Assembly: GCF_000497245.1 (NCBI RefSeq)
Contig: NZ_AWTC01000013.1
Coordinates: 119,085-183,084, forward strand
Direction: 5' to 3'
Source of the DNA: Sporolactobacillus laevolacticus DSM 442
Lineage (GTDB): Bacteria > Bacillota > Bacilli > Bacillales > Sporolactobacillaceae
Length of the DNA: 64,000 nt
Shown one piece after another: positions 21,189 through 39,041 of the stretch. The notes beneath the pieces were generated by a model. The model had not been told where the DNA came from. It was given only the letters and a program-made list of their open reading frames with translations, and ran no database searches. The position numbers and the translations under genes are program-made. Positions within the stretch are counted from its first letter, which is position 1. Each line of letters begins with the position of its first letter.

Positions 21189-22589
21189 TCAGTTCCAGAT
21201 CCGAACACCATCATTAACCTTTTTCCTTTTCAGGAATTGTCCCCGACCTTCATGTCCGATAAACGCTCCATCTTTGCAGATTACTTCTCCTCTAGATAAC
21301 GTCATCACAGGATAGCCTTGTAGCTCAAAGCCTTCATAACATGTGTAATCAACATGTTCATGGAGAAAATCGCTTCTGAGCGTCACTTTCTTTTTTGGAT
21401 CGATCATTACAAGATCGGCATCTGCACCTACAGTGATGTCTCCCTTTTTTGGATAAAGGCCCATCAGCTTTGCCGGATTCGTGCTGATGATCTTTACAAA
21501 ATCTTGCAGACTAATTCTTTTTTTCATCACGCCTTCTGAAAAAAGAAGTGGAATTCGGGTTTCAATCCCTGGTGCGCCATTTGGGCATTTGCTGAAATCA
21601 TCTCTTCCAGCCTGTTTGTCACCATGAAAATTAAACGGACAATGATCGGTTCCGATCACATCCAGTGTACCTTCACTTATGTAGTTCCAAAGCAGATTTT
21701 GATTGGATTTTCTCCGCAGCGGAGGACTCATGATGTACTTCAGTCCTCCATTATCCGGCTCACGATAACATTCCTGGTCCAGGAATAAATATTGCGGGCA
21801 AGTCTCACCGTGCACATTGCGCTTTTTCTGTTTCGCTTCGGCAATGATTTTCGCCGCTTTCGCTGTAGAAACATGAACAATATAAATCGGCGCATCTCCA
21901 GCAATTTCGGACAGAGTGATCATTCGGCCGACTGCTTCGGCTTCAGCTTCTTCCGGCCTGCTGAGTGCGTGAAAAATTGGCGATTTCTGATTATGTTCGA
22001 GATAGTGTTTCTTAAAAAAGCTAAGTATACCGTCATTTTCACAGTGAATGGCGGTGACAGCGCCAAGATCGCCTAGCCGTTTCATTACTCTCAGAGCAGC
22101 TTCATCATCTAATTTGTAGTCATAAGTCAGATAAATTTTGAAGCTTGTAATGCCCTCGTTTTCAATGATGCTCGCCATTTCATCTAAAATTGCCTCATCG
22201 ACATGCTGAATCACACCGTGAAAACTGTAGTCAATCACCGCTTTTCCGTAGGCGTAGCCATGATAGACGTCTACCCGGTTTTTCAAGCTGCAACCCGCTG
22301 GACCGAATTCCATATGATCCACGATACATGTTGTACCGCCACAGGCTGCGGCAACCGTTCCGGTATAAAAGTCATCGGTTGCTACATAGTTACCTTGATG
22401 AAGATTCAGGTGGGTGTGCACATCGACACCGCCGGGCAGAATATACAGTCCGGACGCGTCGATGACTTCATCCGTCACCAAGCCTTCACAGTTACCGATC
22501 ATCTGAATGATTCCCTCAGACATATACAAATCGCCTTGCACGACTCTCTCAGAAGTGACAATGGTTCCATTTTTAATCAAACCCTTCAT
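21189..22589 (-). CDS. D-hydantoinase / dihydropyrimidinase family amidohydrolase (copy 1)
   Basis: A cyclic amidohydrolase of 466 residues that opens hydantoin or dihydropyrimidine rings to N-carbamoyl amino acids. Metal ligands are visible: HTHLN (HxH, about 58), the bridging carboxylated lysine in TSFKIYLTYDYK (about 150), IHCEND (about 183), VHVSTAKAA (about 239) and the aspartate in GTDHCPF (about 316). An upstream in-frame GTG lies inside the Shine-Dalgarno sequence, so the ATG at 22589 is chosen. It is the last gene of the ten-gene operon, separated from the racemase gene by 259 bases containing a 21-bp tandem array. Substrate specificity is not known. Confidence 0.92.
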   Translation of the reverse strand: MKGLIKNGTIVTSERVVQGDLYMSEGIIQMIGNCEGLVTDEVIDASGLYILPGGVDVHTHLNLHQGNYVATDDFYTGTVAAACGGTTCIVDHMEFGPAGCSLKNRVDVYHGYAYGKAVIDYSFHGVIQHVDEAILDEMASIIENEGITSFKIYLTYDYKLDDEAALRVMKRLGDLGAVTAIHCENDGILSFFKKHYLEHNQKSPIFHALSRPEEAEAEAVGRMITLSEIAGDAPIYIVHVSTAKAAKIIAEAKQKKRNVHGETCPQYLFLDQECYREPDNGGLKYIMSPPLRRKSNQNLLWNYISEGTLDVIGTDHCPFNFHGDKQAGRDDFSKCPNGAPGIETRIPLLFSEGVMKKRISLQDFVKIISTNPAKLMGLYPKKGDITVGADADLVMIDPKKKVTLRSDFLHEHVDYTCYEGFELQGYPVMTLSRGEVICKDGAFIGHEGRGQFLKRKKVNDGVRIWN

Positions 22590-22624
22590 AGATAAAGGCA
22601 CCTCTTCAATCGTTTATTTTCACA

Positions 22625-22808
22625 CTTTTTCGGCTCAATTTATGCTTGATCCGGTTGTACTTCAGGATTTCGGTTTCACTTCCGCTTGTTTCGGCTCTAC
22701 TTTCACAGGTTTCGGTCTAACTACTTCCTGATTCGGCTCTACTTTTTCGGGGTTCGGTCTAAGTTTGCTCTTGTTCTGTCTAACCTTTACTCTGCCTAAC
22801 TGTCTGCT
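22625..22808. repeat. 21-bp tandem repeat array between racemase and hydantoinase genes
   Basis: Units beginning TTCGGCTCTAC or TTCGGTCTAAC (or close variants) start at about 22629, 22650, 22669, 22690, 22711, 22732, 22753 and 22774. The last five starts are exactly 21 bases apart, and the two unit types alternate to give a 42-bp higher-order repeat. It fills an intra-operon gap and has no open frame. Twenty-one bases equal two turns of B-DNA. Confidence 0.75.
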
Positions 22809-22848
22809 GCCAATCACTAGGCCAACCTGCTCTGAAAGTAATACTTTC

Positions 22849-23553
22849 TTACAAAGGAAACAGCCCTTTCGGCGGTTCTTGATAAAGCCCTGCTTTTGAT
22901 GTGTTCAGCCCAGTATCCACGATCATCTTCAGCATTTTAATACCCGTGACAACCGGATCAATAACCGGGATATGGAGACTGTCCTCCATTTTTTCTTTCA
23001 ATCCGGTCATGCTGGCGCAACCAAGGATTAGTACCTCTGCACCATCCGCCACACATGAGCGGCCCACTTCAATAAAACGAGCATATTTGCTGCCTCGGTC
23101 CTGTTCAATTGCCAGTACATCAAGATTAATGGCGCGTACAGTGGCGCAGCGCTTTTCTAAGCCGTACTGGTCGATCAGATCCTCCATCATCGGAACGGCT
23201 TTCTGCAAAGCCGTAATAACCACAAATTTTTTCCCGAGCAGAAGTGCAGCAGAAAAAGATGCTTCTGCAATACCAATGACCGGACAAGAGCAGATTTCCT
23301 TAAGTGCATAGAGTCCCGGATCTCCAAAACATGCAATCAGAATACCATCATAAGTTTGTTGATCCTTCTGAACCATCTTTATGAGTTCATAGGCAGCGAT
23401 TTGGTAATCATAGAACGATTCCAGTGATTCGGGTCCAGTGGTTGGGCGGACAACACGCACATCCACATGTGGAAGAACGCCTGTAATTACCTCGTGAATC
23501 GAAGCCGTCATATCTTCACTCGTGTTTGGATTAATCACAAGTAGTTTTTTCAT
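22849..23553 (-). CDS. Hydantoin racemase (Asp/Glu racemase family)
   Basis: A 234-residue racemase that interconverts D- and L-5-substituted hydantoins, letting a stereospecific hydantoinase use both forms. Family motifs are VINPNTSEDM (about 5-14) and the two catalytic cysteines in IACFGDPGLY (about 76) and LGCASMTGL (about 180). The start at 23553 is preferred because it leaves a 5-base gap to the ABC ATPase gene and has GCAGGTGATC upstream. Operon context with two hydantoinases and a D-aminoacylase supports hydantoin over aspartate or glutamate as the substrate. Confidence 0.87.
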   Translation of the reverse strand: MKKLLVINPNTSEDMTASIHEVITGVLPHVDVRVVRPTTGPESLESFYDYQIAAYELIKMVQKDQQTYDGILIACFGDPGLYALKEICSCPVIGIAEASFSAALLLGKKFVVITALQKAVPMMEDLIDQYGLEKRCATVRAINLDVLAIEQDRGSKYARFIEVGRSCVADGAEVLILGCASMTGLKEKMEDSLHIPVIDPVVTGIKMLKMIVDTGLNTSKAGLYQEPPKGLFPL

Positions 23554-23558
23554 ACCGA

Positions 23559-24392
23559 TCACCTGCTGATCGCCGATTGAAATTGATCCCAAAGCTCATC
23601 GGAGGACAGCACATCCCGGCTGATTCCAAATCTGTTCAACGCCTGAGCGATCCGCGTCGCCTCCGGTACCTTCACATAAGCTTTTGCCAATACATCCGGT
23701 TGTGAAAACACTTCTTTTGTGTCGCCGTCGAGCAGGATTTTCCCCTGACAGAGCACAATCACACGCTTAGCAAATTTGGCAACGATATCCATTTCATGGG
23801 TAATAATGATGATGGTATGGCCCCGCTCTTCGTTCAGCTTTTTCAGAAATTCCATAATCTCCACGGACTGACGGTAATCCTGTCCTGTCGTCGGCTCATC
23901 AACAATAATCACTTTCGGCCGCAGCGCAAGAATCGAAGCGATCGACACGCGCTGTCTCAAACCCTTGGGCAGGAAAAAGGGATGCATTGATAGATAGTCT
24001 TCTTTAATCCCTGCGACGGCGGCAGCTTCAGTCACCCGCTCTTCGATTTCTTCTTCCGACAGACCAACGTTTTTCGGCGCATAGGCAATCTCTTTCCTTA
24101 CCTCATTGTTGAACAGCTGGTGATCCGGATTCTGGAAAACATAACCGACTTCCTTGACCAGTTTCTTAATCACTCGCTTTTGGCTCGTGTCGATACCGCC
24201 GCACTTTACATAGCCCTGTGAAGGTTTTAACAGCCCATTCAAGGTTTTCGCGAAGGTCGTTTTTCCAGCACCGTTCTGACCGATCAAGGCAATAAATTCC
24301 CCGCTCTTGATAGTCAAATCGATTCCTTTCAGAGCTTCTGTTCCATCACGATAGGCAAAATGCATATCTTTCACTTCAATGACATCGGTCAT
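23559..24392 (-). CDS. ECF transporter ATP-binding subunit with degenerate signature motif
   Basis: A 277-residue ABC ATPase. Walker A is GQNGAGKTT (about 38-46), the Q-loop lies in YVFQNPDHQL and Walker B is VIIVDEPTTGQD with the catalytic Glu. The family signature LSGGQ is replaced by LPKGL (in FFLPKGLRQRVS), while the partner ATPase keeps LSGGQ. It overlaps that partner gene by 4 bases. Together with EcfT and the S component it forms an energy-coupling-factor importer. One degenerate nucleotide site is common in heterodimeric ABC pairs but unusual for ECF ATPases. Confidence 0.88.
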   Translation of the reverse strand: MTDVIEVKDMHFAYRDGTEALKGIDLTIKSGEFIALIGQNGAGKTTFAKTLNGLLKPSQGYVKCGGIDTSQKRVIKKLVKEVGYVFQNPDHQLFNNEVRKEIAYAPKNVGLSEEEIEERVTEAAAVAGIKEDYLSMHPFFLPKGLRQRVSIASILALRPKVIIVDEPTTGQDYRQSVEIMEFLKKLNEERGHTIIIITHEMDIVAKFAKRVIVLCQGKILLDGDTKEVFSQPDVLAKAYVKVPEATRIAQALNRFGISRDVLSSDELWDQFQSAISR

Positions 24393-25255
24393 TTGATCGC
24401 CTCCTTACGCGCACAAATTGATTGTGCGATTTCAATCGTTTCTTCAACTGAGGTCGTCATGGGGCCGTCATACAATCCTGCCTGTTTCAGCTGATCGAGA
24501 AAAACAATAGAAGCCGGCGGATTGAGTCCGAGTTCCAGCAATTCCCCGACATTTTCAAAAAAGCGTTCCGGCTCTGCATATCGTGCGATCTTCCCCTGAT
24601 GGACTAGAATTAGGCGATCCGACAGTCGGGCGAGCCGATCCAATGTGTGCTCAACCATGATAATCGTCATGTGCAGCTCTTCTTTCATCCGCGCGCAAAT
24701 GTTGAAGATGCTATCCTTACCAATTGGATCAAGCATCGACGTCGGCTCATCTAAAATGATAACTCTTGGCTGCATCGCAAGGACAGAAGCAATCGCAACG
24801 CGCTGCTTCTGTCCGCCTGACAGATCATAAGGCGATTTATCGAGCAGGCTTTCAAGTCCGGTAATATCCGCCACCCATTGAATTCTTTCTTTAATTTCAT
24901 CGCTGCCCAGCCCGATATTTTCCATGCCGAACGCCAGCTCCTCTTCAACACTCATTGAGGTAAACTGTGCTTCGGGATCGGCGAAAACAAAGCCCACATA
25001 CTTCGCAAGTTCTTGCGCGTTTAAATCACGGATATTTTTTCCGAATAACCGAACCTCGCCTTTGTAACTGCCAATAAAATTATGCGGAATCAATCCTTTG
25101 ATACAAGAAACAAGCGTCGTCTTCCCCGATTCATTTGGTCCGCACACGCCAATAAACATGTTTTCTTCGATCTCCAGACTCACATCTTCGAGGGCAGGAT
25201 GATCGGTATCGGTATATTGCCAAGTTAATTGATTGATTTCAATAATTTTTTCCAT
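24389..25255 (-). CDS. ECF transporter ATP-binding subunit (canonical)
   Basis: A 288-residue ABC ATPase with Walker A GPNESGKTT (about 40), Q-loop VGFVFADPEAQF (in which the usual Gln is replaced by Ala, the motif being FADPEAQ), intact signature [10 protein letters not shown] (about 143) and Walker B VIILDEPTSMLD. Dimerises with the product of the overlapping next gene and drives EcfT. EcfT ends 21 bases upstream. Its presence in this operon marks the importer as dedicated to the substrate of the hydantoinases and not shared with vitamin transporters. Confidence 0.88.
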   Translation of the reverse strand: MEKIIEINQLTWQYTDTDHPALEDVSLEIEENMFIGVCGPNESGKTTLVSCIKGLIPHNFIGSYKGEVRLFGKNIRDLNAQELAKYVGFVFADPEAQFTSMSVEEELAFGMENIGLGSDEIKERIQWVADITGLESLLDKSPYDLSGGQKQRVAIASVLAMQPRVIILDEPTSMLDPIGKDSIFNICARMKEELHMTIIMVEHTLDRLARLSDRLILVHQGKIARYAEPERFFENVGELLELGLNPPASIVFLDQLKQAGLYDGPMTTSVEETIEIAQSICARKEAIK

Positions 25256-25276
25256 AAATGATTCTCCTGTAAAGCT

Positions 25277-26140
25277 TTATTTTAACAAGGTTTGAAGAAG
25301 TGAGTGATTCGCGTCAAACCATTGGTATCGGTACTTAAAATAGATAATCAGAAAAAGCAGCAGGACCAAAATCACACAGGAAACAACATCTGCGGCAGAA
25401 AAATGGTATTTTGTCAGAATATAGTCCGCCCGCTTACCTGAATTCTTCATCGAATAACCCTTAACATACAGTGCATTGCTAATCTCATCGCTTCGTCTCA
25501 GTGCTAGCGACAGCAGAGGAATAATGTACATACTGTACAACTTCACCTTGTCCGTGAACTTCAATGCTGCATAATCCAGTCCTCTTGCTTGCTCCGCTTC
25601 GCGGACTGTGTGCAGATCTTCAAGAAACATCCCCGCCGATCTTAGTGACAGGCCGAGCACATAGCTGGCAACGAATGGCATTTTCAAGGTACGTAGCGCA
25701 GCAAGTATGTCACGCTCACGGTTTGTTGAAAAATAGAAAATTGATGAGAGCAGCAGTGCGAGAATTTTGCTGTAAGCAATGCACGCATTCATTATCGGTT
25801 GATCATATAACGGAAGCCCGAAAATGTGGCCGATCACTTGATAGTTCGGATCTTTTCCCGGGAAAAAGATAAAGGTCAGGAACGTAAAGATACCGGCACA
25901 GATAATCACCGGGAGATACATTTTCAAGCTACTAAGTGCGACTTTTGAATAGATAAATAAAAGCAGCACAAGAACTGCAAACATAAAATTAAGTTCCGGC
26001 ATGTTGATAAACAAAGGAATAAAACCGGTGATGACAAATAGCAGTAGCCGTGACACCGGATGAAATGAATAAAGTGGAGACTCCACTGGTATTAAAGCCA
26101 GCAGAGTCTTCATCATTTTTTTATTTTGAGCCCCTTCCAT
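25277..26140 (-). CDS. ECF transporter transmembrane subunit EcfT
   Basis: A 287-residue membrane protein with about six hydrophobic segments and the two cytosolic coupling motifs of EcfT: EAEQARGLD near residue 180 and ALYVKGYS near 230 (Ala-Arg-Gly-type motifs that contact the ATPases). An upstream in-frame ATG overlaps the Shine-Dalgarno sequence GGAGG, so the ATG at 26140 is used. Located between the S-component and ATPase genes, completing a group-I-like ECF module. Confidence 0.88.
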   Translation of the reverse strand: MEGAQNKKMMKTLLALIPVESPLYSFHPVSRLLLFVITGFIPLFINMPELNFMFAVLVLLLFIYSKVALSSLKMYLPVIICAGIFTFLTFIFFPGKDPNYQVIGHIFGLPLYDQPIMNACIAYSKILALLLSSIFYFSTNRERDILAALRTLKMPFVASYVLGLSLRSAGMFLEDLHTVREAEQARGLDYAALKFTDKVKLYSMYIIPLLSLALRRSDEISNALYVKGYSMKNSGKRADYILTKYHFSAADVVSCVILVLLLFLIIYFKYRYQWFDANHSLLQTLLK

Positions 26141-26160
26141 GATTACCTCCATGTTTTCTC

Positions 26161-26183
26161 AGAGGATCAAGTCCTCTTTTTTT
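26161..26183 (+). terminator. Plus-strand terminator-like hairpin inside a minus-strand operon
   Basis: AGAGGA / TCCTCT with a 5-base loop and seven T reads as a terminator only on the plus strand, opposite to all genes here. It lies between EcfS and EcfT and may stop antisense transcription. Confidence 0.45.
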
Positions 26184-26204
26184 AGGCAAGCAGCGGTTCA
26201 ATGA

Positions 26205-26819
26205 TTAAGCCCAATATTTTTTGCAGAATGATTTTGACTTAACGATCAGCGGTGAAACGAATTTCAGCAGGATTGCGCCAAGAATAAAGGATGGTACCGA
26301 GTTGCCGATCGACCAACCGAAGAAGACAGTGATTGTTGAAGATGGCGAAATCATCCCGAACATTCTAAGTACAGTCACGCCCCAAGCTGCGCCGATCGCG
26401 TTGCAAAGGATTACACCAAATACAGTGAATACAGCCCAGTCTTTGCCACTTGTAAGACGCGGGTCACATTTGAAAAAGCGGAATGCCCAGCCGGCCATGA
26501 TACCTTGGAGAAAGTTGCCCGGTGCGTAAGCCAGTGATACAGCAATCGATGCGCTTCCTGCGATCGCGTTGGAAATGAGCGGGAAGACAATGCTAGCGAT
26601 ACCGCCCCACATGCCAAACCAAATGCATCCGACACTCTGAATCGCCTGGCCCGGCCAGAACGCAGAGACAAATCCAAGCGGTACTGCTAAGCTGCCGAAT
26701 GTTCCAACAACAACGCCGACACCGATAAAAAGAGCCATCATGATAATGTGATTCATTTGCGGTGTTCTTAATTCACCTTCATTGAGACTCCAAACATTTG
26801 CATTCATTTTCATATTCAT
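26205..26819 (-). CDS. ECF transporter substrate-binding S component
   Basis: A 204-residue membrane protein with about six hydrophobic segments. An AxxxA-like pattern is less clear than in vitamin S components. Features include GVGVVVGTFGSLAVPLG, FGMWGGIASIVFPLIS and a conserved-looking PGNFLQGIMAGWAF stretch. It is adjacent to EcfT (64 bases) and both ATPases, so it is assigned as the substrate-specific subunit. The ligand cannot be read from the sequence. The flanking enzymes suggest a hydantoin, ureide, dihydropyrimidine or related heterocycle. ATG at 26819 follows GGGAGG. Confidence 0.75.
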   Translation of the reverse strand: MNMKMNANVWSLNEGELRTPQMNHIIMMALFIGVGVVVGTFGSLAVPLGFVSAFWPGQAIQSVGCIWFGMWGGIASIVFPLISNAIAGSASIAVSLAYAPGNFLQGIMAGWAFRFFKCDPRLTSGKDWAVFTVFGVILCNAIGAAWGVTVLRMFGMISPSSTITVFFGWSIGNSVPSFILGAILLKFVSPLIVKSKSFCKKYWA

Positions 26820-26912
26820 AGGTAATCCTCCCAATTGTTTGTATTGTTTTATTTTTCAGATATTATTGCTCAAGCATGTCTTTTCATTGTAAAAAATCAT
26901 CAGCAGTCGGCA

Positions 26913-28277
26913 CTATTTACTGAGAAGGAGTCTGCCCTCCCCTTTCTCACCTAAAAATATATCTCCATCAACAATCAATTTTCCGTTTGTGTAGACTTTT
27001 ACCGGACTCCCGGTCACTTGCTCGCTTTTATAGGGGCAAAAATCAGAAGACATATGATGATTCCGGTCATCCAGCACTTTGGTTGGTTTTGGATCAAAAA
27101 GAAATAGATCTGCGTCCATCCCAATGTCAATTTTTCCTTTTCTGTCGGCGATTCCGAATACCTTGGCAGGGTTTTCCGATAACCAGCCGACAACTTTTTC
27201 AATCGGAATGTCGCGGCGCGCAACCGCATGCTCATACATCAGCGGCCAAAGCCATTCGATTCCATGAAGCCCCGGCGATATTTTTGTAAAATTGGTTTTC
27301 GCGGCTATTTTTTTATCCGTACTATAATCACAATGATCACTGCTGACAATCGAAAGTGTGCCATCTAATAATCCGGCCCACAACGCCTCAATGTCCTTTT
27401 CCTTGCGCAGTGGCGGCGCCATCACATATTTGTAACCGTCATTCCGCTGGTAGCAGCAGTCGTCTAAAATAAGATAATGTGTGCACGTTTCAGCCGTGAC
27501 ATCAACTCCTTCGCGTTTTGCTTGTCTGATCAATTCCACGCTTTCAGCGGTTGTTACATGAACGATATAGAGTTTAGCACCTGTTACTTTTGCGAAAAGC
27601 AGCAGTCTGGAAATGCATTCTATTTCTGCCATCGGTGGGCGGCTTTGCGCATAATGCACAACATCCGCTTGATCTTTGGCAAGCAGCCTGCCCGTCAGTT
27701 CTTCACAAAACGAGTCATTCTCGGCGTGAACCATTGAAAATCCGCCGTGTTCCGTGATCACGTTCATCAAGGTAAGCATATCCGGATCTTCAATTTTAAA
27801 GCCGGCGCTTTTGTAAGTTGTAAACATCTTGAATGAAGTAAATCCATCAGCAATCAGTTCCGGTATCAACTCAATTGTTGTTTTTGAACTGTCGGTGACA
27901 TGGGCGTGCACACCATAATCAATGCAGCTTTCGTTTTCGATCTGACGGATTCGACGTGTAACCGCCGTTCGCACATTTTCCTCAGGCCGCTGCACAGCAA
28001 AATCAATGAATGTTGTCGTTCCGCCGAATGCTGCCGCACGGCTTCCAGTAAAAAAGGTATCTTCTGTGTTTGCGGTACCGCCCCAATGATCAATGTGCGT
28101 GTGTACATCAATAATACCGGGCAATACATAGCAGCCCTCCGCATCTACAATCTCAGAAGCGTCTTGTTCTAAGCGTTCGGCAAGTACCACTATTTTTCCG
28201 GCACGCACGCCAATATCCATTTTTCGAGTTGATTTTGCCGAACAAACGCGACCATTTTTAATAAGAAGATCAAGCAA
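26913..28277 (-). CDS. Hydantoinase / dihydropyrimidinase family amidohydrolase (copy 2)
   Basis: A second cyclic amidohydrolase, about 454 residues. It keeps HTHID (about 57), the carboxylated lysine in TSFKMFTTYK (about 148), HAENDS, VHVTTAES and the aspartate in SSDHCDY. The frame is open upstream to 28364, but that would overlap the D-aminoacylase gene by 86 bases. A TTG at 28277, preceded by AGAAGG and one base from the upstream stop, is the better start. It is closer to the allantoinase/HyuA-like subgroup than copy 1 (for example DHWGGTANTED), so the two may act on different rings or different steps. Confidence 0.85.
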   Translation of the reverse strand: MLDLLIKNGRVCSAKSTRKMDIGVRAGKIVVLAERLEQDASEIVDAEGCYVLPGIIDVHTHIDHWGGTANTEDTFFTGSRAAAFGGTTTFIDFAVQRPEENVRTAVTRRIRQIENESCIDYGVHAHVTDSSKTTIELIPELIADGFTSFKMFTTYKSAGFKIEDPDMLTLMNVITEHGGFSMVHAENDSFCEELTGRLLAKDQADVVHYAQSRPPMAEIECISRLLLFAKVTGAKLYIVHVTTAESVELIRQAKREGVDVTAETCTHYLILDDCCYQRNDGYKYVMAPPLRKEKDIEALWAGLLDGTLSIVSSDHCDYSTDKKIAAKTNFTKISPGLHGIEWLWPLMYEHAVARRDIPIEKVVGWLSENPAKVFGIADRKGKIDIGMDADLFLFDPKPTKVLDDRNHHMSSDFCPYKSEQVTGSPVKVYTNGKLIVDGDIFLGEKGEGRLLLSK

Positions 28278-28278
28278 C

Positions 28279-29913
28279 TTAACAGCCTTCTTTCTGAGAA
28301 AGCGGTAAACAGCTGTACTTTCTGCGGAACACAATGCCGGCCGGCTTTCGGTATGCCTCTTCACCGTCGATAACTACCTCACCATTGACAATCACCTTGT
28401 CAATACCGATGTTATATTGACGCGGATTCTCAAAAGTTGCTTGATCAATAATTGTGTCCGGATCAAAAATAACAATATCTGCTGCGAGTCCCTCGCGCAG
28501 GATGCCACGATCCTGAAGACCGATAATCCGAGCCGGCTGCGATGTGAAACGACGGATCATTTGTTCAAGCGGCAATACATTTTCTTCGCGGACAAATCGC
28601 CCGAGCACACGCGGAAAAGATCCATATGCACGCGGATGCGGTTCGCCGCCTAGCAGACCGTCTGTTCCAAGTGTTCCAGCCGGATGGCGGACAATCATCT
28701 TGATGTCGTCCTCATTGATGACAAAATCAATCATCCCAACTGCGTTTTTTTCTTCATAGATGAGATCAAGTGCGATCTGTGCGTAATCGGTCCTGTTCTT
28801 TATCTTGCCTATTTCCGCAATGGTTTTGCCCACGCAGTCTTGATTTTTCTCGCTCTCAACAGAAGTAACGATAATCCCGTTCCAGCCGGCCCACTTAGAA
28901 ATGCTGTCCCAGCCCTCAAGCGCGGTCTCCATTTCCTTAATCATCCGCTTAGACAGGGCCGGATCCTCGAGCCGCTTCAACATCATTTCAGTCCCGCCGT
29001 CATGTGCCCATGGCGGCAAGGTCGCGCTGAGCATTGTACTGCCTGCGGGGTACGGGTACTGATCAAAAGTAACTTCAAGACCATCTGCTCGCGCTTGATC
29101 AATTTTTCCAAGAACCTCAGGCGTTTTATGCCAGTTGAATTGACCGCAATTTTTCAAATGCGAGAAATGCAAATGGGCGCCGCATCGCTTCATCATCTCA
29201 ATCAGTTCATCCATCGATTCAATAATTTCGTCCCCTTCGCTGCGCTGATGAATGACAAGCGGCACACCGTATTCGCCAAGCACCATGCATAAAGCTTCTA
29301 GTTCTTTCATCTCGGCGAAACAGCAAGGCGGGTAGATCAGCCCGGTTGACATGCCAACCGCGCCTTCATCTAGACAGCGTCGCAGCACCTTTTGCATCTG
29401 ACCAATTTCTTCGTCAGTCGCCGGCCGATCATCCAAACCCATCACTTCCATCCGAATATTGCCATGCGGTGCCAGAACAGCTAGATTGTAACTTGGATGG
29501 ATGTCTTCAATCTTTTTCAAGTACTCATCTATCGTATTCCAGTCCCAAGAAATATCGGGGTTACCGTCTAGACCAGACAAGTTGCCGCGCCAGTCTTCCT
29601 TATAAGCATCAGGGAGCGGAGCGGCTGCGATCCCGTCTTGACCGAGCAGCTCGGTTGTGATCCCCTGGCGTACTTTCGCTTCAACAAGCGGATCCGCTAA
29701 GATAAACAAATCAGTATGCACATGCATATCAATGAATCCAGGACAGACAATCTGATGATAGGCGTCAATTTCTGTTTTTCCAGTCTCACCAGTCAGCTTG
29801 CCAATTTTGCTGATCTTGCCCAAATCGACTGCAATATCACCATAAAACCATGGAGAACCTGTACCATCGATAATTCTTCCGTTTCTGATTACTAGATCAT
29901 GCAAATCGTTCAT
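28279..29913 (-). CDS. N-acyl-D-amino-acid deacylase family amidohydrolase (D-aminoacylase)
   Basis: A 544-residue zinc amidohydrolase of the D-aminoacylase type, which removes acyl or similar groups from N-substituted D-amino acids. Visible motifs are the N-terminal HVHTD metal site (about 67), GQDGIAAAP, the cysteine-containing STGLIYPPCCF region near 200, and HFSHLKNCG near 265. With hydantoin racemase and hydantoinases in the same operon it could process N-carbamoyl-D- or formyl-amino acids, but this family is not a proven carbamoylase. It begins 12 bases after the M20 gene and ends one base before the TTG of hydantoinase copy 2. Confidence 0.87.
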   Translation of the reverse strand: MNDLHDLVIRNGRIIDGTGSPWFYGDIAVDLGKISKIGKLTGETGKTEIDAYHQIVCPGFIDMHVHTDLFILADPLVEAKVRQGITTELLGQDGIAAAPLPDAYKEDWRGNLSGLDGNPDISWDWNTIDEYLKKIEDIHPSYNLAVLAPHGNIRMEVMGLDDRPATDEEIGQMQKVLRRCLDEGAVGMSTGLIYPPCCFAEMKELEALCMVLGEYGVPLVIHQRSEGDEIIESMDELIEMMKRCGAHLHFSHLKNCGQFNWHKTPEVLGKIDQARADGLEVTFDQYPYPAGSTMLSATLPPWAHDGGTEMMLKRLEDPALSKRMIKEMETALEGWDSISKWAGWNGIIVTSVESEKNQDCVGKTIAEIGKIKNRTDYAQIALDLIYEEKNAVGMIDFVINEDDIKMIVRHPAGTLGTDGLLGGEPHPRAYGSFPRVLGRFVREENVLPLEQMIRRFTSQPARIIGLQDRGILREGLAADIVIFDPDTIIDQATFENPRQYNIGIDKVIVNGEVVIDGEEAYRKPAGIVFRRKYSCLPLSQKEGC

Positions 29914-29925
29914 CTTCTTTCACCT

Positions 29926-31113
29926 TCATTTTTCAATAAGCAGCGCATGCATGATTGCTGCAAATCCTTTAACTGCTTGTGTCAGCTGTTCAATTTCAAT
30001 GTACTCGTTATCCGTGTGTGCCAAATTTTCTCTTGAAGGACCGAATCCGATCGTCGGAATTCCTGCCTCACCAGCAAAATGACTGCCATTAGTGCAGAAG
30101 GAATAGTGGGAAAGTTGTGCTGGAATGCCAATCTCCCTCAGTGCCTGCTGTGTCCTTGACACAAAATCCTCGTGCTCATCAAATAACCAAGCGGGGAAGA
30201 AACGCTCTGCCTCAATGGTTTTGCCGGTATAGCATGTATCCGTTCCTTTTGAGTAGTACACTGTTGCCTCAAAGGTTGGATCCTCTTCGCTTAACCTTTC
30301 AATCAGCTGCTGAATGGGCTGCAGAACGGATGCTTTCGTCTCATTCACCAAAGTGCGTCGATCAAAAGTCGCCCGGCACGAAGCCGGAAGAACAGATTTC
30401 CCCGGATAAGGCGATGACACAATGTCAGTCAGAACAAGAATTCCTTTACCCAACACCGGATCCTCCGTCACCGGCAATCTTTCAATTTCGACAAGCAGTT
30501 TCATCATTTGCGTAACGGCGTTTACGCCTTTTTCTGGATTGGCAGAATGGACGGATACGCCAGTTGTTTCAACCACAATCTCCGCTCTGCCACGCTGTCC
30601 TCGATTCAGGTTTAGTTCGGTCGCCTCGCCAATGATGACAAAATCAGGTTTAAAATGTTCACTTACTGATCTCGTAGCTATGCCTTCGAACGTTTCCTCA
30701 TGGACACTGCAGGAAATAACGATCTTTCCGGGAAAGTTTTTTCCTGTTTCTCGCGTGAACTGATCAGCGGCAATAATCATCGCACTGACGGATCCCTTCA
30801 TGTCCGAACTGCCGCGGCCATAAAGTTTACCATCGATTTCAACCGGTTGAAAAGGGTCAATCTCCCAATGATCTTTGTTCACAGGAACGGTATCGATGTG
30901 TCCGTCTAAAAGCAGCGTCGGTCCATCAGGCGTTCCATTGATCACAAGTGCGACATTGCCCAATTCATCAACGGAAATTTCATCAAATTGCTTTTTCTCC
31001 GCAAAATCGGTGATTACACGGGCTGTTTTGTCTTCTTCACCTGAATAGCTCTTCTCTCTAATCAACGCTTTGCAGAGCGACACAACTTGACTTTTCATCT
31101 CATTAGCCAACAT
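29926..31113 (-). CDS. M20 family amidohydrolase (YgeY/ArgE/DapE-like)
   Basis: A 395-residue di-zinc peptidase-like hydrolase. Conserved positions are DGHIDTVP (first metal His and Asp, about 79), GRGSSDMKGS (bridging Asp, about 108), HEETFEG (catalytic and metal Glu) and the C-terminal HTDNEYI (metal His). It resembles E. coli YgeY, whose gene sits next to ygeX, the diaminopropionate lyase gene. It overlaps the lyase gene by 11 bases here, so the two are translationally coupled. Likely job: releasing 2,3-diaminopropionate or a related amino acid from an N-substituted precursor (inference). Confidence 0.87.
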   Translation of the reverse strand: MLANEMKSQVVSLCKALIREKSYSGEEDKTARVITDFAEKKQFDEISVDELGNVALVINGTPDGPTLLLDGHIDTVPVNKDHWEIDPFQPVEIDGKLYGRGSSDMKGSVSAMIIAADQFTRETGKNFPGKIVISCSVHEETFEGIATRSVSEHFKPDFVIIGEATELNLNRGQRGRAEIVVETTGVSVHSANPEKGVNAVTQMMKLLVEIERLPVTEDPVLGKGILVLTDIVSSPYPGKSVLPASCRATFDRRTLVNETKASVLQPIQQLIERLSEEDPTFEATVYYSKGTDTCYTGKTIEAERFFPAWLFDEHEDFVSRTQQALREIGIPAQLSHYSFCTNGSHFAGEAGIPTIGFGPSRENLAHTDNEYIEIEQLTQAVKGFAAIMHALLIEK

Positions 31114-32341
31114 TTAACTCGCCTCTCAGATCTCTTTTCAGATTTGGATAACCGCCTTTCCAAACAATCTCTCGGTAGGATTGTGGATCCGTATCCCCTT
31201 CTGTGCTGATCAACAAAATTCTCGACGATTCATTGATCCCTAGCTCTTTCCTTCCGTTTTCCAGGCTCACTTCTGTACAAAGCAAGTACAGAACGCCCAT
31301 TGTTACCGCACCTGATTCACCAGAGACAACCTGTGGATCACCGTAAAGCGGATTTCCATAAATACGCATACCGAGCGCGGTCACTTCATCCGGGCACGAT
31401 ACTGCGCCATAGGTGTACCGGCTTAAAATTTCGAAGGCCGTGTGGTTCGGTTCACCGCAGGCAAGCCCTGCCATGATCGTCGCCATATCACCGCCAACCG
31501 ACTGCATCGCACCGTCTTCTCGGGCAAACGATTGAAAGTAACAGTCTGCTTGATCAGGTTCTACGAGTACAATTTTTGGCGGTGCATCGGGATATTTGTG
31601 CAGAAAGTAAGCAGCAATACCTCCAGCGTACGAACCAACACCTGCCTGAAGAAAAATGTGGGTAGGCGGCTCAGGGATTTGTTCTGAAATCTCTTTTGCA
31701 ATCGCTGCATACCCTTGCATAATCCAGAGCGGGATTTTCTCATAACCCGGCCATGCGGTATCTTGAATCATCAAATAGTCGTTTTTGCGAGCGATCTGTT
31801 CACAAAGCCGAACCGTTTCGTCATAATTAACATCACAGATTTCCGCGTCGGCGCCTTCCGCCCGAATAGCAGCCAGCCTTTTTAGTGACGAGCCTTTTGG
31901 CATTCGAATGACTGATTTCAACCCCAATTCACGAGCTACCCAAGCGATTCCTCTGCCATGATTGCCATCAGTCGCCGAAATAAAAGTCAGATCGCCAAGC
32001 TCTTTCTTCACTTCTCCCGTTTTCAGCATATCAAACGAAAGCTTTTCAATCGGGAGCTGGAGCTTTTCCGCCAGGCAGCAGGCAATGGAATAAATGCCGC
32101 CCATAACTTTGAAAGCATTCAAGCCGAACCGATAGGATTCATCCTTGACATACACCTTTGAAACATTCAAATGCTCTGCCATGGCATCAAGACTTTTTAG
32201 AGGCGTTTCTTTATATGCTTCATGCGTTTTTTGAAACGAGAGCACCTTCTCAATCTCCGAATCCGAAAACTCATGCACATCTGTTAAATCAACGTTTGCG
32301 TATAACCTTCTATTGCTTTCTATTTTTAAAACATCACTCAA
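31103..32341 (-). CDS. dpaL: Diaminopropionate ammonia-lyase (YgeX-like)
   Basis: PLP enzyme that converts 2,3-diaminopropionate to pyruvate and two ammonia. The 412 residues match E. coli YgeX: the PLP-lysine motif LNAFKVMGG (about 74-82), SATDGNHGRGIAW (about 122), the glycine-rich AGVGSYAGG (about 230) and GESGAVTMG. The start is unusual. The TTG at 32341 lies 17 bases after GGGAGG, whereas an in-frame ATT at 32348-32350 is at the ideal 8-base distance. It is the first gene of the operon, downstream of a sigma-A-like promoter and divergent from the YgeV-like regulator. Pyruvate and ammonia as end products explain the value of the operon. Confidence 0.92.
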   Translation of the reverse strand: MSDVLKIESNRRLYANVDLTDVHEFSDSEIEKVLSFQKTHEAYKETPLKSLDAMAEHLNVSKVYVKDESYRFGLNAFKVMGGIYSIACCLAEKLQLPIEKLSFDMLKTGEVKKELGDLTFISATDGNHGRGIAWVARELGLKSVIRMPKGSSLKRLAAIRAEGADAEICDVNYDETVRLCEQIARKNDYLMIQDTAWPGYEKIPLWIMQGYAAIAKEISEQIPEPPTHIFLQAGVGSYAGGIAAYFLHKYPDAPPKIVLVEPDQADCYFQSFAREDGAMQSVGGDMATIMAGLACGEPNHTAFEILSRYTYGAVSCPDEVTALGMRIYGNPLYGDPQVVSGESGAVTMGVLYLLCTEVSLENGRKELGINESSRILLISTEGDTDPQSYREIVWKGGYPNLKRDLRGELNVG

Positions 32342-32474
32342 GGAACTAATGACGACGTCCTCCCTTATTGATCACTCTGGCAAAATCGCAATTTTTTTGG
32401 ATGATCCGGCCTCCTTTTATTTGCCGATTTATCGTTTTCTCTTTGCTCATGAGTGCTTTATTAAGCTTAACTTG

Positions 32475-32503
32475 ACTATAATTTCAATTGTCTGTCTATT
32501 CAA
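32475..32503 (-). promoter_or_regulatory. Sigma-A-like promoter of the dpaL operon
   Basis: The minus strand reads TTGAAT (32498-32503), a 17-base spacer, then TATAGT (32475-32480). No -24/-12 (GG-N10-GC) element was found in the 380-base intergenic region. The -35 overlaps the edge of operator A by two bases. Confidence 0.55.
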
Positions 32504-32520
32504 GTATCGAAATGATACTT
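32502..32520. promoter_or_regulatory. Operator A, candidate site of the YgeV-like regulator
   Basis: Perfect palindrome AAGTATC-N5-GATACTT, immediately upstream of the -35 of the dpaL promoter, the position of a class II activator site. Same motif as operators B and C. Confidence 0.65.
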
Positions 32521-32675
32521 ATAAAAACCATAGACTCCAAGTCTCTGTCATAATTTCTGACAAGTTCATTGTTTTATAAACATCGGTCTGATATAGTGTA
32601 ACCACAATAATCATAGCCTTTTGAAGTAAAATGTATCATTTGAATTTCAGCGATTCCTGTTTTCAAAATAATCAT

Positions 32676-32713
32676 AAGTATCAAATTGATACTAGTGTAT
32701 CAATTTGATACTT
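32676..32713. promoter_or_regulatory. Operators B and C, double palindrome before the YgeV-like gene
   Basis: Two sites of the form (A/T)GTATC-N5-GATACT lie back to back at 32676-32694 and 32695-32713. Together they form a 17-bp perfect inverted repeat around TAGT. The right edge is 17 bases before the ATG, so binding would cover the regulator's own promoter or ribosome-binding site, suggesting autoregulation. Confidence 0.7.
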
Positions 32714-32729
32714 AGCAAGGAGCGCACCT

Positions 32730-34457
32730 ATGTACGTTGAATTACGAGAGGTTCAGTCAACAATTCAGCAAATTGTTATGGCAATATCGGCTGTCCTGAA
32801 AATTGAGGTGGAGGTGGCCGATGCCGATTTATTCCGTATTGCCGGAACCGGATTGATTAAACAAAAAATATGGAAAGAAATGAGCGGCGAGGACGCCGTT
32901 TACAGGCAATGTGTTGAAAGAGGACAAACAATCGTAATCGATCGGCCAGGCTTTAACGATATTTGTACAAGCTGTCCGCATTTTGGAAACTGCGCCGAAC
33001 ACGGAGAAATATGCACACCGATTAAAATTAATCAGCAAGTAATCGGAGTTATTGGATTGATCGCCTTCAGCGTTGAACAGAGAGAAAAACTATTCGGCGA
33101 TATAGATGCTAATATTTACTTTTTGAAAAAGATGGCCGATGTGATCGCTACCAAAGTAAACGAAAACATTATTTTCAGGCAACAACTGATTGCAGAAAAA
33201 AAGATCTCCACTTTAGTCAATTGCATCGATATGGGTCTTCTGATGCTAAATCAAGGCGAGTGCGAGTTTATCAGTAAAACTGCTAGAAAAATGCTTCAAT
33301 TAGGAGAAAATGAAGCGGCTAACCCTAAGCTAGTTGCACAGTTCACAGGAAGAAAGCACATAGATCCAAATGGAGCTATTGTCTGGATTGATCTCGGCTC
33401 CTACCGGAAGAAATTTTTCATAACTGTCCACCAAATTGACGTTCTGGAAAAAGATGAAGCAGAAGTTGTTCTGATCGAAGATCCAGAGCATATCACTCAG
33501 ATCGCTACACATATCACAATTGATAAGCAAAATCATGCGACCGGCTTAATCGGATCATCCACGGCGATCCTCAATATCAAGCAAATTCTATTGAAAATCA
33601 AGGATGAATCGATTCCGATCCTGATTACAGGAGAAGATGGAACAGGCAAAACCTTTGCAGCCCATTTCGTTCATACAACCGCAAATAAGCCTGAAGATAT
33701 GTACCGAAAAATCAATGTTTCATACTACTCAGAAGACGACCTGAATCAATTACTGTTCGGTGATCGGACAAATCCGTCAAAAAAAGGATATTTAGAGAAG
33801 CTAGACGGCGGGACTCTTGTGCTGGATGAAATTGATCGCATCGGCCAGTCCACACAGTTGCTGCTCAATAAATTTCTCAGTGATAAACTGATCGAGAAAA
33901 ACGGTCAGGCGATGAAAGTCAATGTGCGTTTGATCAGTGTCACAAATAAAAATCTCATGGATTTTGTGCAGAGGGGCCGTTTCCGTCAAGACCTTTATTA
34001 TAAAATTGGTGTTGTTCCTATATTTATGCCACCACTGAGAGAGAGAAAAAGCGACATCATGATGCTTGCCGACTACTTTTTAAATCTGCTTAATCTAAAT
34101 GCGGAATCGGTCCGAAAAACATTTGCTAGACAAATTCAGGATGTTGTAGGTGCCTATGATTGGCCGGGAAATATCCAAGAATTGTATAATGCGTTTGCAT
34201 ACGCATTCAGTGTCTCCGACGAACCCGTCATTCGCGTTGAACATTTTCCTGACTATCTGCTTGAGAAATATCACTCGCGCATTAAACAATCCAGTCAGAA
34301 TTTTAATCTGCAGACAATTGAACGAGACACAATAAAAAAAGCCCTGATCAAAGTGAAAAGCGAAGGAAAGAAAAAAGAAGAAGCTGCCGCCCTGCTCGGT
34401 ATTGGACGGGCAACCTTGTTTCGCAAGATTTCTGAGTATCGGTTAAACAACCAATAA
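32730..34457 (+). CDS. YgeV-like AAA+ regulator lacking the GAFTGA loop
   Basis: A 575-residue regulator with the sigma-54-activator domain order. N-terminal GAF-like sensor with a cysteine cluster (Cys79, 82, 88, 95 in CTSCPHFGNCAEHGEICTPI), a PAS-like middle part, an AAA+ domain (Walker A GEDGTGKT at 301-308, Walker B LVLDEID near 363, arginine-finger region RFRQDLYYKI) and a C-terminal Fis-type helix-turn-helix (EEAAALLGIGRATLFRKI). The segment that should read GAFTGA is DRTNPSKKG (about 345-353), so sigma-54 contact is not expected. TyrR-like proteins with this loss act on sigma-70 promoters. It is divergent from the dpaL operon, as ygeV is near ygeWXY in E. coli. Cysteines suggest metal, Fe-S or redox sensing (inference). 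Confidence 0.88.
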   Translation: MYVELREVQSTIQQIVMAISAVLKIEVEVADADLFRIAGTGLIKQKIWKEMSGEDAVYRQCVERGQTIVIDRPGFNDICTSCPHFGNCAEHGEICTPIKINQQVIGVIGLIAFSVEQREKLFGDIDANIYFLKKMADVIATKVNENIIFRQQLIAEKKISTLVNCIDMGLLMLNQGECEFISKTARKMLQLGENEAANPKLVAQFTGRKHIDPNGAIVWIDLGSYRKKFFITVHQIDVLEKDEAEVVLIEDPEHITQIATHITIDKQNHATGLIGSSTAILNIKQILLKIKDESIPILITGEDGTGKTFAAHFVHTTANKPEDMYRKINVSYYSEDDLNQLLFGDRTNPSKKGYLEKLDGGTLVLDEIDRIGQSTQLLLNKFLSDKLIEKNGQAMKVNVRLISVTNKNLMDFVQRGRFRQDLYYKIGVVPIFMPPLRERKSDIMMLADYFLNLLNLNAESVRKTFARQIQDVVGAYDWPGNIQELYNAFAYAFSVSDEPVIRVEHFPDYLLEKYHSRIKQSSQNFNLQTIERDTIKKALIKVKSEGKKKEEAAALLGIGRATLFRKISEYRLNNQ

Positions 34458-34540: not shown

Positions 34541-35968
34541 TTAGTCGGCTATGTTTATCGACACGTATTTCGTCTCCAAATAAGGTTCAATGCCTTCAAT
34601 TCCGCCTTCTCTGCCCATTCCACTTTCTTTCATCCCGCCGAATGGGGCTTGAACCGTAGAAGGTCCGCCATCATTCCAGCCAATAATGCCGTATTTCAGA
34701 TGCTCGGATAAATAAATGCCGCGCTTCATATTTTCAGTAAAGAAGTATGCAGCCAGGCCATATGGTGTGTCATTTGCAAGCCGCACTGCGTCTTCAATTT
34801 CTGTGAATGTAATCACCGGTGCGATTGGTCCAAATGTCTCTTCATGCATGATCCGCATTGACTCGTCAACGTTGGTCAAGATTGTTGGCCAGACAAAATA
34901 GGTGCCGGCTTCGTCATCTCCATGATGGCTGCCTCCAAGCGCAACGACTGCCCCACGCGAACACGCATCTTCAAGCTGACCGATAATTTTCTCATAACCC
35001 TGTTTGTTAATGATCGGTCCGATTGCAATACCGTCCTCCATACCATTTCCGACCTTCAATGTGCTGGCGGCTTGCACAAGTTTTTCAACGAAGCGCTCTG
35101 CAATGGATTGATGAACAATCAACCGGTTGGCGCAGATACAGGTCTGGCCAGCGTTACGAAATTTGGATACAAGTGTTTGCTGAACTGCTAGATCAAGATT
35201 CGCATCTTTATCGATTATAAGCGGTGCGTGGCCACCCAATTCCATCGACGTGTGTTTGACTGTACTTGCGCTGTTTTTTAATAATTGCTTGCCAACAGCC
35301 GTTGATCCTGTGAACGTAATTTTTCGAATCAATGGGCTTGCTGTAAAAAGTTCCCCAACCACTTTGCCTTCAGCAAGCACGCAGCACATCACATCTTTTG
35401 GGATGCCTGCTTCATAACCGAGTCGAAACATTTCGAAAGCAGTTAGCGGTGTTTCAGGAGCCGGTTTTACGATGAACGTGCATCCAGCCGCAAGAGCAGG
35501 GCCAACCTTGCGTGTGATCATTGCTGCCGGAAAGTTCCATGGTGTAATTGCAGCAACGACACCAATCGGTTTACGAGTGATGACAATCCGTTTTTTTGTC
35601 GATGAAGCCGGAATTGTCCGTCCGTATATGCGTTTTGCCTCTTCCGAATACCACTGCAAATATTTAGCAGCGTATGCGACTTCCCCAAGCGCTTCGCTAT
35701 AGGGCTTACCATTCTCAAGGGTGATCAGTTTTGCAAGTTCGTGCTGGTGATCCATGATCTTCTCGTACCATTTGTACAGCAGTCCTGATCTTTCTTCAGC
35801 AGATGTCTTTGACCAAGTCTGAAAGCCTTTATGTAATGCCATTATTTTTTCTTCAATAGATTCTAATGAATCAAGTGTTAATGTATCTACAATTTCTCCG
35901 GTTGCAGGATTGAACACATCAAAGGTTTTTTCTTCTCCTGGAACCCCATCTCTATCGATCGTCTCCAT
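34541..35968 (-). CDS. gabD: Succinate-semialdehyde dehydrogenase
   Basis: NAD(P)-dependent aldehyde dehydrogenase (475 residues from the chosen ATG) that oxidises succinate semialdehyde to succinate, the last step of GABA catabolism. Motifs are TPWNFPAAM (about 140), the coenzyme fold FTGSTAVGK (about 216), the general base Glu in [10 protein letters not shown] (about 240) and the catalytic cysteine in [11 protein letters not shown] (about 275). A frame extension of 11 codons upstream lacks a ribosome-binding site; GAGGAG precedes the ATG at 35968. It ends the GABA gene group on this strand. A related semialdehyde substrate such as glutarate semialdehyde is possible. Confidence 0.92.
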
Positions 35969-36060
35969 GATCGCTCTCCTCTGTAAAATAAAATTGATCA
36001 CAAAAATGGAAAATCCAGATCTGTTTTGCCCTAACTTTTCTAGTTTCTATAAAACAACGA

Positions 36061-37404
36061 TCAGAACTCAGAAAATACTTTTTCAATAACGTTCAATGTT
36101 CTTTGGATATCTTCCTCTGTATGTTCGGTAGAAAGGTAGATTCTGCCGCGATTCGGGGTAAAGCGCACGCCGAGCTCAAGGCAACGCATGACAAAACGGT
36201 CATAAAGTTCTTGATCAATTGACGTCAGGCATTCTCTAAAGTCATTCAGTGGATGATCCACGCCTAGTTCGAGCAGGCAAATGGCTCCGGCATGATCGCA
36301 GTGAAGCGTGACTTGGTATTTTTCTCCCAGCTTTCTGATACCCTCCGTCAGTACCCTACCCAAATGGTCAAATCGTTCATACACGCCGGGCTGTTCAAGC
36401 TGGTTGATTGTCGCTAGTGCAGCGGCAACCGATACAGCATTCCCATTGAACGTCCCCGATGCGTGAACGCCGCATTCCATCACCTGCCGCTTTCCCGTAA
36501 CAACGGAAATTGGAAATCCTCCGGAGATCGCCTTAGCAAACACAGCAACATCGGGCGTGACGCCAAAATATTCCTGTGCACCGCCCAAAGCCATTCTAAA
36601 GCCTGTGATCACTTCGTCGAAAATAAGTAAAATCCCATGTTCCGTTGCCAACTGCCGAAGACCCTCAAGATAGCCTTTTTTCGGAAGGATCGGCCCGGAA
36701 TCACACATAAAGGGTTCAGTGATGATTGCCGCAATATCATGACCCTCTTTGTCTATAATACGTCTGATCGCGTCCAGATCATTCCATGGCGCAAGCATGA
36801 TATTCTCCGTTGCGCTCGGCAGCTGCCCAAGTGATTCCCGCCTTTTCCATGGATCATTTCTCGGGCCCAATTCTTCTATAGATCTAGCGTCGGTACTAAT
36901 TTTTTCCTCATCCGACCAGCCATGATACTGGCCCTCAAACTTAATAATTTTTGATTTTCCGGTATACGCCCTTGCTAACCTGAACACGAACATATTCGCT
37001 TCGGTCCCGGTATTTTGAAAAACAATTTTCTCCGCACAAGGAATGATTTCTACCAGTTTTTTAGAAAGCTTGAACAAATCATAGGTTGGTGAGCAAAACT
37101 GGGTTCCGATCTCGAGTTGCCTGCTGACCGCCTCATTCACCGTATCGGGACTGTAACCCAAAATGAGCGGACCCATACCAGCTACATAATCGATGTACGC
37201 GTTGCCATCAACATCATACAGGTGCGACCCTTTCCCTTTTTCGAAACAGATTGGGTATTCTTGAAAAGACGCTTTATGAAAAGAACTGGCAACGCCGTCT
37301 AATAAGTACGTTTTGGATTGTTGGAACAGCTTTTTGGAATTGCTCGTGTTGACCGCATAATCGTTCAGTCTTGCCACCCCACTTTCTCGTTGATGTTCCA
37401 GCAT
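36061..37404 (-). CDS. Class-III aminotransferase, glutamate-1-semialdehyde aminomutase-like
   Basis: PLP enzyme of 447 residues in the HemL/omega-aminotransferase group. The PLP lysine is in VAVFAKAISGGFP (about 285), preceded by LIFDEVITGFR (about 255); FQNTGTEANM near 130 binds cofactor phosphate. Its place between an amino-acid ABC transporter and gabD suggests deamination of an omega- or beta-amino acid to a semialdehyde, not heme synthesis. No clear ribosome-binding site is seen before the ATG, so a later start is possible. Together with GabT this gives the cluster two class-III aminotransferases. Confidence 0.8.
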   Translation of the reverse strand: MLEHQRESGVARLNDYAVNTSNSKKLFQQSKTYLLDGVASSFHKASFQEYPICFEKGKGSHLYDVDGNAYIDYVAGMGPLILGYSPDTVNEAVSRQLEIGTQFCSPTYDLFKLSKKLVEIIPCAEKIVFQNTGTEANMFVFRLARAYTGKSKIIKFEGQYHGWSDEEKISTDARSIEELGPRNDPWKRRESLGQLPSATENIMLAPWNDLDAIRRIIDKEGHDIAAIITEPFMCDSGPILPKKGYLEGLRQLATEHGILLIFDEVITGFRMALGGAQEYFGVTPDVAVFAKAISGGFPISVVTGKRQVMECGVHASGTFNGNAVSVAAALATINQLEQPGVYERFDHLGRVLTEGIRKLGEKYQVTLHCDHAGAICLLELGVDHPLNDFRECLTSIDQELYDRFVMRCLELGVRFTPNRGRIYLSTEHTEEDIQRTLNVIEKVFSEF

Positions 37405-37436
37405 GTTTCGAAAGTGTTTACAGCAGAATTAACAGA

Positions 37437-38907: not shown

Positions 38908-38978
38908 TCAATACACCTCATTAATCAAACGATTCTCTTAGAGGATGTTCAAAAAGTCCGGGAAAAAGGTTAAGAAGG

Positions 38979-39041
38979 ATCTTCTGCTAATTACATGCAC
39001 GTCCTGTGCATAACGCAGAAGTCACCGCATCCTGCGGAAGT
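38979..39041. repeat. Three-stem 63-bp module 1
   Basis: Stem 1 CTTCTGC / GCAGAAG encloses stem 2 ATGCAC-GTCCT-GTGCAT, followed by stem 3 CCGC-ATCCT-GCGG. All 12 positions differing from module 2 are paired and compensated. Confidence 0.8.

Follow-up and report, generated by a model that had tools for sequence, protein, structure and literature searches.

A probable lower arm of the reductive uric-acid pathway, with its own importer, in Sporolactobacillus laevolacticus

Which compound is degraded by a gene set that joins two hydantoinases, a hydantoin racemase, a diaminopropionate ammonia-lyase and an importer of the energy-coupling factor (ECF) type? The question is raised by a locus of Sporolactobacillus laevolacticus DSM 442, whose genome comprises 3.59 Mb in 32 contigs. 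The locus lies in a 64 kb stretch of contig NZ_AWTC01000013.1 (positions 119,085 to 183,084), here called the window, and consists of ten minus-strand genes that run from 32341 to 21189 in the order dal, ygeY, uacY, hyd2, S, ecfT, ecfA1, ecfA2, racemase and hyd1. A sequence-only reading had proposed ring opening, deacylation and conversion to pyruvate and ammonia of a substrate that it called unknown and perhaps new. The homology of the gene content to published pathway enzymes supports the proposed chemistry and narrows the substrate to intermediates of the C. difficile-type uric-acid pathway. Judging by gene content, we consider it probable that the operon encodes the later steps (the lower arm) of reductive uric-acid breakdown in the hydrolytic, C. 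difficile-type form, split from the upper arm and provided with its own importer.

Reductive degradation of uric acid was not elucidated until 2025. According to Li et al. 2025 (PMC12507026), who assayed the enzymes of the pathway, HyuA acts on two rings, ureidomethyl-hydantoin and 5-ureido-dihydrouracil, and opens both; UacY, a PF07969 relative of D-aminoacylases that replaces YgeW in C. difficile, yields albizziin; and YgeY followed by YgeX leads to pyruvate. The C. difficile-type cluster given there comprises XdhD, UacX, SsnA, HyuA, UacY, YgeY and YgeX, and equivalents of HyuA, UacY, YgeY and YgeX occur together in the window, which is the content of a UacY-type lower arm. In the proposed route, the ECF complex would import a ureide ring, with 5-(ureidomethyl)hydantoin and/or 5-ureido-dihydrouracil as the likeliest candidates, and the racemase would convert the unusable hydantoin enantiomer to the usable one. 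By family, hyd1 and hyd2 would open the rings to 2,3-diureidopropionate, the pairing of enzyme with ring being a guess. By homology to the assayed enzymes, UacY would then attack this product at its 2-ureido group, leaving albizziin; loss of the 3-ureido group through YgeY would yield 2,3-diaminopropionate, from which the ammonia-lyase would form pyruvate and ammonia. Other bacteria would carry out the steps that reduce and open the purine, or the ureide would come from another source.

The operon and its conservation in Sporolactobacillus

Gene families were assigned with Pfam, NCBIfam and comparison with solved relatives; open frames and family searches confirmed every gene that had been claimed, ten on the minus strand and a divergent regulator. 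The dal product (31103..32341), a YgeX-type 2,3-diaminopropionate ammonia-lyase (DAL), scores 546 bits against TIGR03528 (cut-off 532) and matches the solved DAL 5ygr at E 4.5e-113. It retains the motifs FGLNAFK, TDGNHGRG and QDTAW, which we take to serve pyridoxal-phosphate binding and catalysis. The M20 hydrolase encoded by ygeY (29926..31113) lies over the cut-off of NF009555 (451 against 321 bits) and below that of TIGR03526 (263 against 321.5). The predicted 2-ureido hydrolase encoded by uacY (28279..29913) exceeds the PF07969 cut-off, falls below that of NF006560 (215 against 340) and has N-acyl-D-glutamate deacylase 3gip as its nearest solved structure. It keeps HxH, H, HxK, Y, D and PHPR, presumably the metal ligands and the residues that bind the acyl amino acid, while the cysteine of the D-aminoacylase GNCG motif is replaced, the motif here reading GQDG. 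GQDG also occurs in the UacY of a uricolytic cluster described below (L237) and in many relatives; as a marker of UacY it was dropped, being found in other Bacilli D-aminoacylases too.

Both hydantoinases exceed the TIGR02033 cut-off of 393 (577 and 429 bits) and are 33% identical to each other. In the hydantoinase tree (all trees were drawn with midpoint roots), the HyuA-type hyd1 (21189..22601) grouped with E. coli HyuA and a further relative (L264) at 100/99 support. The second enzyme, hyd2 (26913..28277), belongs to the D-hydantoinase/dihydropyrimidinase family, retains the metal-ligand motifs and stood alone on a separate branch. We dropped the idea that hyd2 is the counterpart of the second hydantoinases in two loci with a similar importer (L311 and L312), which sit on another branch. 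The racemase (22849..23553) belongs to the hydantoin/allantoin racemase family (PF01177), matches hydantoin racemase 3qvj at E 2.1e-42, and has two cysteines, at CFGDPG and LGC, that are conserved in five relatives.

The importer genes lie between hyd2 and the racemase. S (26205..26819) encodes a 209-residue membrane protein with no Pfam match, which its position beside the T and ATPase genes, repeated by relatives in L311-L314, suggests to be the substrate-binding component. The ecfT product (25277..26152) is over the PF02361 cut-off. The two ATPases, ecfA1 (24389..25255; TIGR04520, 253 bits) and ecfA2 (23559..24392; TIGR04521, 285 bits), have ECF ATPases as their top NCBIfam matches, under the cut-offs of 315 and 330, respectively.

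The ten genes, which would form a single transcript, are kept in order and orientation in S. nakayamae (69-94% protein identity) and in Sporolactobacillus sp. THM7-4 (60-86%), each with a divergent regulator, so the arrangement exceeds chance and the claim of one conserved gene set stands. These are also the closest named relatives at the locus as judged by UacY (90% and 86%). The operon is not genus-wide, as a sampled congener (G129) gave no S, UacY or DAL match at the thresholds used. Two details of the sequence-only reading had to be corrected. Gaps of 1-90 bases had been claimed, but that between hyd1 and the racemase (22602..22848) measures 247 bases and contains a degenerate 21-base repeat absent from both relatives, in which the gap is short; the other gaps are short. 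Two apparent gene overlaps, of 34 and 86 bases, are an artefact of over-long starts; the likelier starts are 23553 for the racemase and 28277 for hyd2, the latter chosen from the ribosome-binding site in a longer frame that extends to 28364.

Among known systems, the operon can be set against four. Relative to the C. difficile-type cluster it adds the ECF importer, the racemase and the second hydantoinase, and its DAL belongs to another clade. With the E. coli ygeV-ygeWXY-hyuA-yqeA locus, a kinship that had been proposed and holds, it shares YgeX (50%) and HyuA (51%) equivalents and a divergent AAA+ regulator; it differs in having UacY in place of YgeW and YqeA, in a YgeY of 31% identity, and in a regulator of 28% identity that has no GAFTGA. 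The third and fourth comparisons, with stand-alone cassettes and with a locus of G552 that has a similar importer, are described below. In the literature, covered as titles and abstract openings with subscription papers mostly outside reach, no stand-alone lower arm and no ureide ECF importer was described.

Relatives of the enzymes and of the importer

The genes for YgeW, carbamate kinase, YgfK, SsnA and xanthine dehydrogenase are missing from the operon, as had been stated. The genome gave no MoCoBD_1 match, and hence no XdhD-type molybdenum hydroxylase, where an E. coli control was positive; its best SsnA match reached 191.8 bits against a cut-off of 455.5, the gene being closest to GuaD among the references. 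A YgfK/UacX reductase is absent from the operon, no genome-wide search for it having been made. A full purine pathway within this genome was dropped for want of SsnA over the cut-off and of a molybdenum hydroxylase.

A search for SsnA in 398 phylum genomes gave 86 matches at E<=1e-120, 85 of them over the cut-off, and the 40 neighbourhoods read held YgeW in 18 cases, DAL in nine and UacY in one. The neighbourhood with UacY, a uricolytic cluster (L237), has the order dal-ygeY-uacY-ssnA-xanQ-UacX-like-hyuA-xdh, the UacX-like protein being a dihydroorotate/dihydropyrimidine dehydrogenase relative under curated cut-offs; the first three genes of this cluster run as they do in the operon. A second cluster (L242) resembles it, with no UacY within the stretch examined. 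In a third genome (G018), the contig bearing UacY also carries a ygeY of the window type together with ssnA, xanQ, xdh and a UacX relative.

Searching with UacY gave 38 places, of which 18 regions were examined. Besides those of the three Sporolactobacillus, six stand-alone cassettes came to light, in Lysinibacillus antri, Psychrobacillus antarcticus, Oceanobacillus neutriphilus, Edaphobacillus lindanitolerans and two further genomes (G366 and G253). They have the same three enzymes in the same order, dal-ygeY-uacY, followed by an SSF symporter (five) or an MFS carrier (one) in place of the ECF importer. Within the stretches examined, two of which stop within about 3 kb of the cassette, none of the six showed a hydantoinase or racemase, though in G253 a hydantoinase relative lies about 15 kb off on the same contig. 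The upper-arm searches covered eight cassette genomes (THM7-4 left out), five of them reached through loci with completeness not stated; SsnA over the cut-off was found in none and MoCoBD_1 in one (G253). Common to all the cassettes are dal-ygeY-uacY and an importer. This core fits an open-chain diureide or an acyl-diaminopropionate as substrate in the other cassettes and a ring form in Sporolactobacillus.

In the UacY tree (47 of 106 rows included), the nine cassette proteins grouped with those of G018 (L124), the uricolytic cluster L237 and G039 (L135) at 100/99 support, apart from 12 other Bacilli D-aminoacylases. The YgeY tree joined the nine cassettes with L237 and L242 (100/99), separate from 20 E. 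coli-type YgeY proteins; within this clade the two uricolytic rows and the cassettes are not resolved from one another. The D-aminoacylase of the sequence-only reading can be placed further: tree position and the gene order of L237 indicate UacY, the hydrolytic stand-in for YgeW, which would make the locus a C. difficile-type lower arm and narrow its substrate to the intermediates of that pathway.

Relatives of the importer were sought separately. The single S protein, run against 398 class genomes, matched in its own genome alone at E<=1e-8, whereas with a three-row profile 12 of 373 phylum genomes, its own included, yielded relatives. In G552 (L312), dal-ygeY-ygeW-yqeA, a nitrilase-family gene and a HyuA-type gene are transcribed divergently from an S-T-A1-A2-racemase block, whose S is about 61% identical. 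This locus resembles the operon in that block, in dal and in having a HyuA-type and a second hydantoinase; it differs in YgeW and YqeA, in an E. coli-type YgeY, in an importer divergent from the enzymes and in an SsnA encoded elsewhere, on a different contig. In G494 (L311) the same block precedes a hydantoinase, and in G627 and G526 S-T-A1-A2 has no adjoining racemase. The gene order S-T-A-A inside the operon is in keeping with the private ECF importer that had been claimed, but the importer is not unique to it, as G552 shows. At E<=1e-120 SsnA was matched in all nine non-own genomes with S relatives at E<1e-10, compared with 86 of the 398 genomes searched; eight of the nine exceed the SsnA cut-off and the match in G546 is partial. 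Two weaker S relatives (G442 and G710, E about 5e-4), neither SsnA-positive, were left out of this count. The hypergeometric value of 7e-7 was computed ignoring kinship and, the genomes being related, is not a probability. The four closer S relatives (48-66%) are all in genomes over the SsnA cut-off. Distant S-component relatives with ECF genes also lie near an MtmB-like methyltransferase (L318) and near pterin-binding and formyltransferase-family genes (L319).

From the side of DAL, 46 places were found at E<=1e-60 and 40 class neighbourhoods were read, leaving out the genome itself, G253, G366, G154, G169 and G258. None held UacY, S or the racemase, so that the combination is no usual companion of DAL. 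Nine of the 40 (family f37) have DAL with a relative of the regulator and an M20 relative about 30% identical to the window YgeY, and lack UacY and SsnA.

Substrate and competing explanations

Several of these results weigh against a uric-acid lower arm. UacY is present in just one of the 40 SsnA neighbourhoods read, and G018, uricolytic by content, has no DAL at E<=1e-60, although a 23% relative adjoins its ygeY. In the DAL tree, the cassette DALs form a Bacilli clade outside those of the uricolytic clusters; the gene set therefore has parts of different history, and uricolytic descent, which the grouping of UacY and YgeY indicates, does not extend to all enzymes. A hyd1 search at E<=1e-40 found no match in three of the eight cassette genomes (G366, L. 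antri and Edaphobacillus), so that the cassettes cannot all act on a ring substrate. HyuA by itself cleaves both ureidomethyl-hydantoin and 5-ureido-dihydrouracil in Li et al. 2025 (PMC12507026), and a second hydantoinase is thus not required. Finally, identity is low (24-31%) for five of the nine S relatives, of which two adjoin methyltransferase-type genes, and kinship of the genomes inflates the co-occurrence of S with SsnA.

The alternative that survives these data best, though we judge it rather unlikely, is that the operon degrades N-substituted 2,3-diaminopropionates of plant or soil origin (N-acyl-D-diaminopropionates, albizziin or the hydantoin of albizziin) and is unrelated to uric acid, its enzymes having been recruited from uricolytic relatives. 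It would account for the separate history of DAL, for a genome with no upper arm and for relatives that have just dal-ygeY-uacY with an SSF or MFS carrier, and legumes are known to contain the amino acid albizziin (PMC12990295). It accounts less well for the UacY and YgeY clades common to uricolytic clusters, and for the ECF-racemase block that adjoins a YgeW-type lower arm in the SsnA-positive G552.

We regard a broad scavenging role as improbable. Hydantoinase, hydantoin racemase and D-carbamoylase together form the industrial arrangement for producing D-amino acids, and by its likeness to this arrangement and its two divergent hydantoinases the operon might turn many 5-substituted hydantoins into D-N-carbamoyl amino acids, for UacY to decarbamoylate and DAL to handle one product. 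Yet dal and ygeY are constant partners of this UacY type in nine of nine cassettes, which indicates diaminopropionate as the product, and the three cassette genomes with no hydantoinase match do not suit a hydantoin scavenger. Least credible of all is an ECF complex that imports a vitamin or other cofactor and lies in the operon by accident, the enzyme substrate entering otherwise: most characterised S components bind vitamins or metals, and the ligand of this one is not readable from sequence, its structure model being of low confidence, but two other lineages have the S-T-A1-A2-racemase block next to genes of a lower arm or for a hydantoinase, and the ECF genes are kept inside the operon in three Sporolactobacillus. 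A ligand assignment from that model, built from three near-identical sequences (pLDDT 44), was dropped.

A bolder reading, which we hold to be less likely than not, is entry into the pathway by cross-feeding: in a bacterium that lacks the purine-opening enzymes, racemic ureidomethyl-hydantoin, with 5-ureido-dihydrouracil, would enter through a ureide-dedicated ECF importer, the racemase would feed the D-specific enzymes, and the bacterium would live on pyruvate and ammonia. The racemase would then supply the stereochemical step that the pathway lacks, and would do so too in G552 and other lineages with this block. It is a candidate for the step that sets stereochemistry in the pathway because the D-aminoacylase relatives, beside one of which it is encoded, act on D-forms. 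The Percudani review (PMC12990295) lists as open that step, the order of ureido cleavage and the standing of albizziin as a real intermediate. A self-standing lower arm with racemase and importer makes the stereochemistry and albizziin questions directly testable, and UacY with YgeY would fix the order in which the ureido groups leave when YgeW is absent. If true, the operon would exemplify a division of labour among bacteria that break down purines, with an ECF complex that imports a ureide; it suggests that some bacteria may live on the leftovers of uric-acid degraders or on other ureide sources.

Control region and neighbouring features

The divergent regulator (32730..34457, plus strand) is an AAA+ protein of the sigma-54 activator family with a Fis-type helix-turn-helix. 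It had been called YgeV-like; the divergent AAA+ architecture agrees, but the GAFTGA loop is absent, as it is in both Sporolactobacillus relatives, while YgeV and two other loci (L044 and L045) have it and a third (L123) has GSFTGA. Although rpoN is present in the genome, sigma-54 control was dropped on account of the missing GAFTGA. A scan found no sigma-54 site upstream of dal in the three Sporolactobacillus or the six other cassettes; with none in the whole 64 kb either, the scan has no positive control.

The perfect palindrome GTATCN5GATAC occurs three times in the 388 bases between dal and the regulator (32342..32729) and nowhere else in the window; 0.03 were expected, and none of 100 shuffles reached three. 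The dal-side palindrome abuts a TTGAAT-N17-TATAGT site facing dal, and the block is conserved in three Sporolactobacillus. Promoter-like matches (25 against 22.4 expected) and terminators (16 against 12.6) are near chance in number, so that such a promoter match by itself is no evidence. By analogy with TyrR, the comparison case for an AAA+ regulator at a sigma-70 promoter, we infer that the regulator may act at a promoter of this kind. No riboswitch was found in the operon by Rfam at gathering scores.

Beside the regulator (34541-40218) lie genes for an aldehyde dehydrogenase, a class-III aminotransferase and a polar amino-acid ABC transporter; the aminotransferase and the transporter are also found at the S. 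nakayamae locus and not in THM7-4. The latter has a hydantoinase B/oxoprolinase gene upstream of its regulator (L043, 2233-3882). Two tandem Bacillaceae-1 RNAs (RF01690), with 38 bases between them, occupy 38971-39144 on the plus strand.

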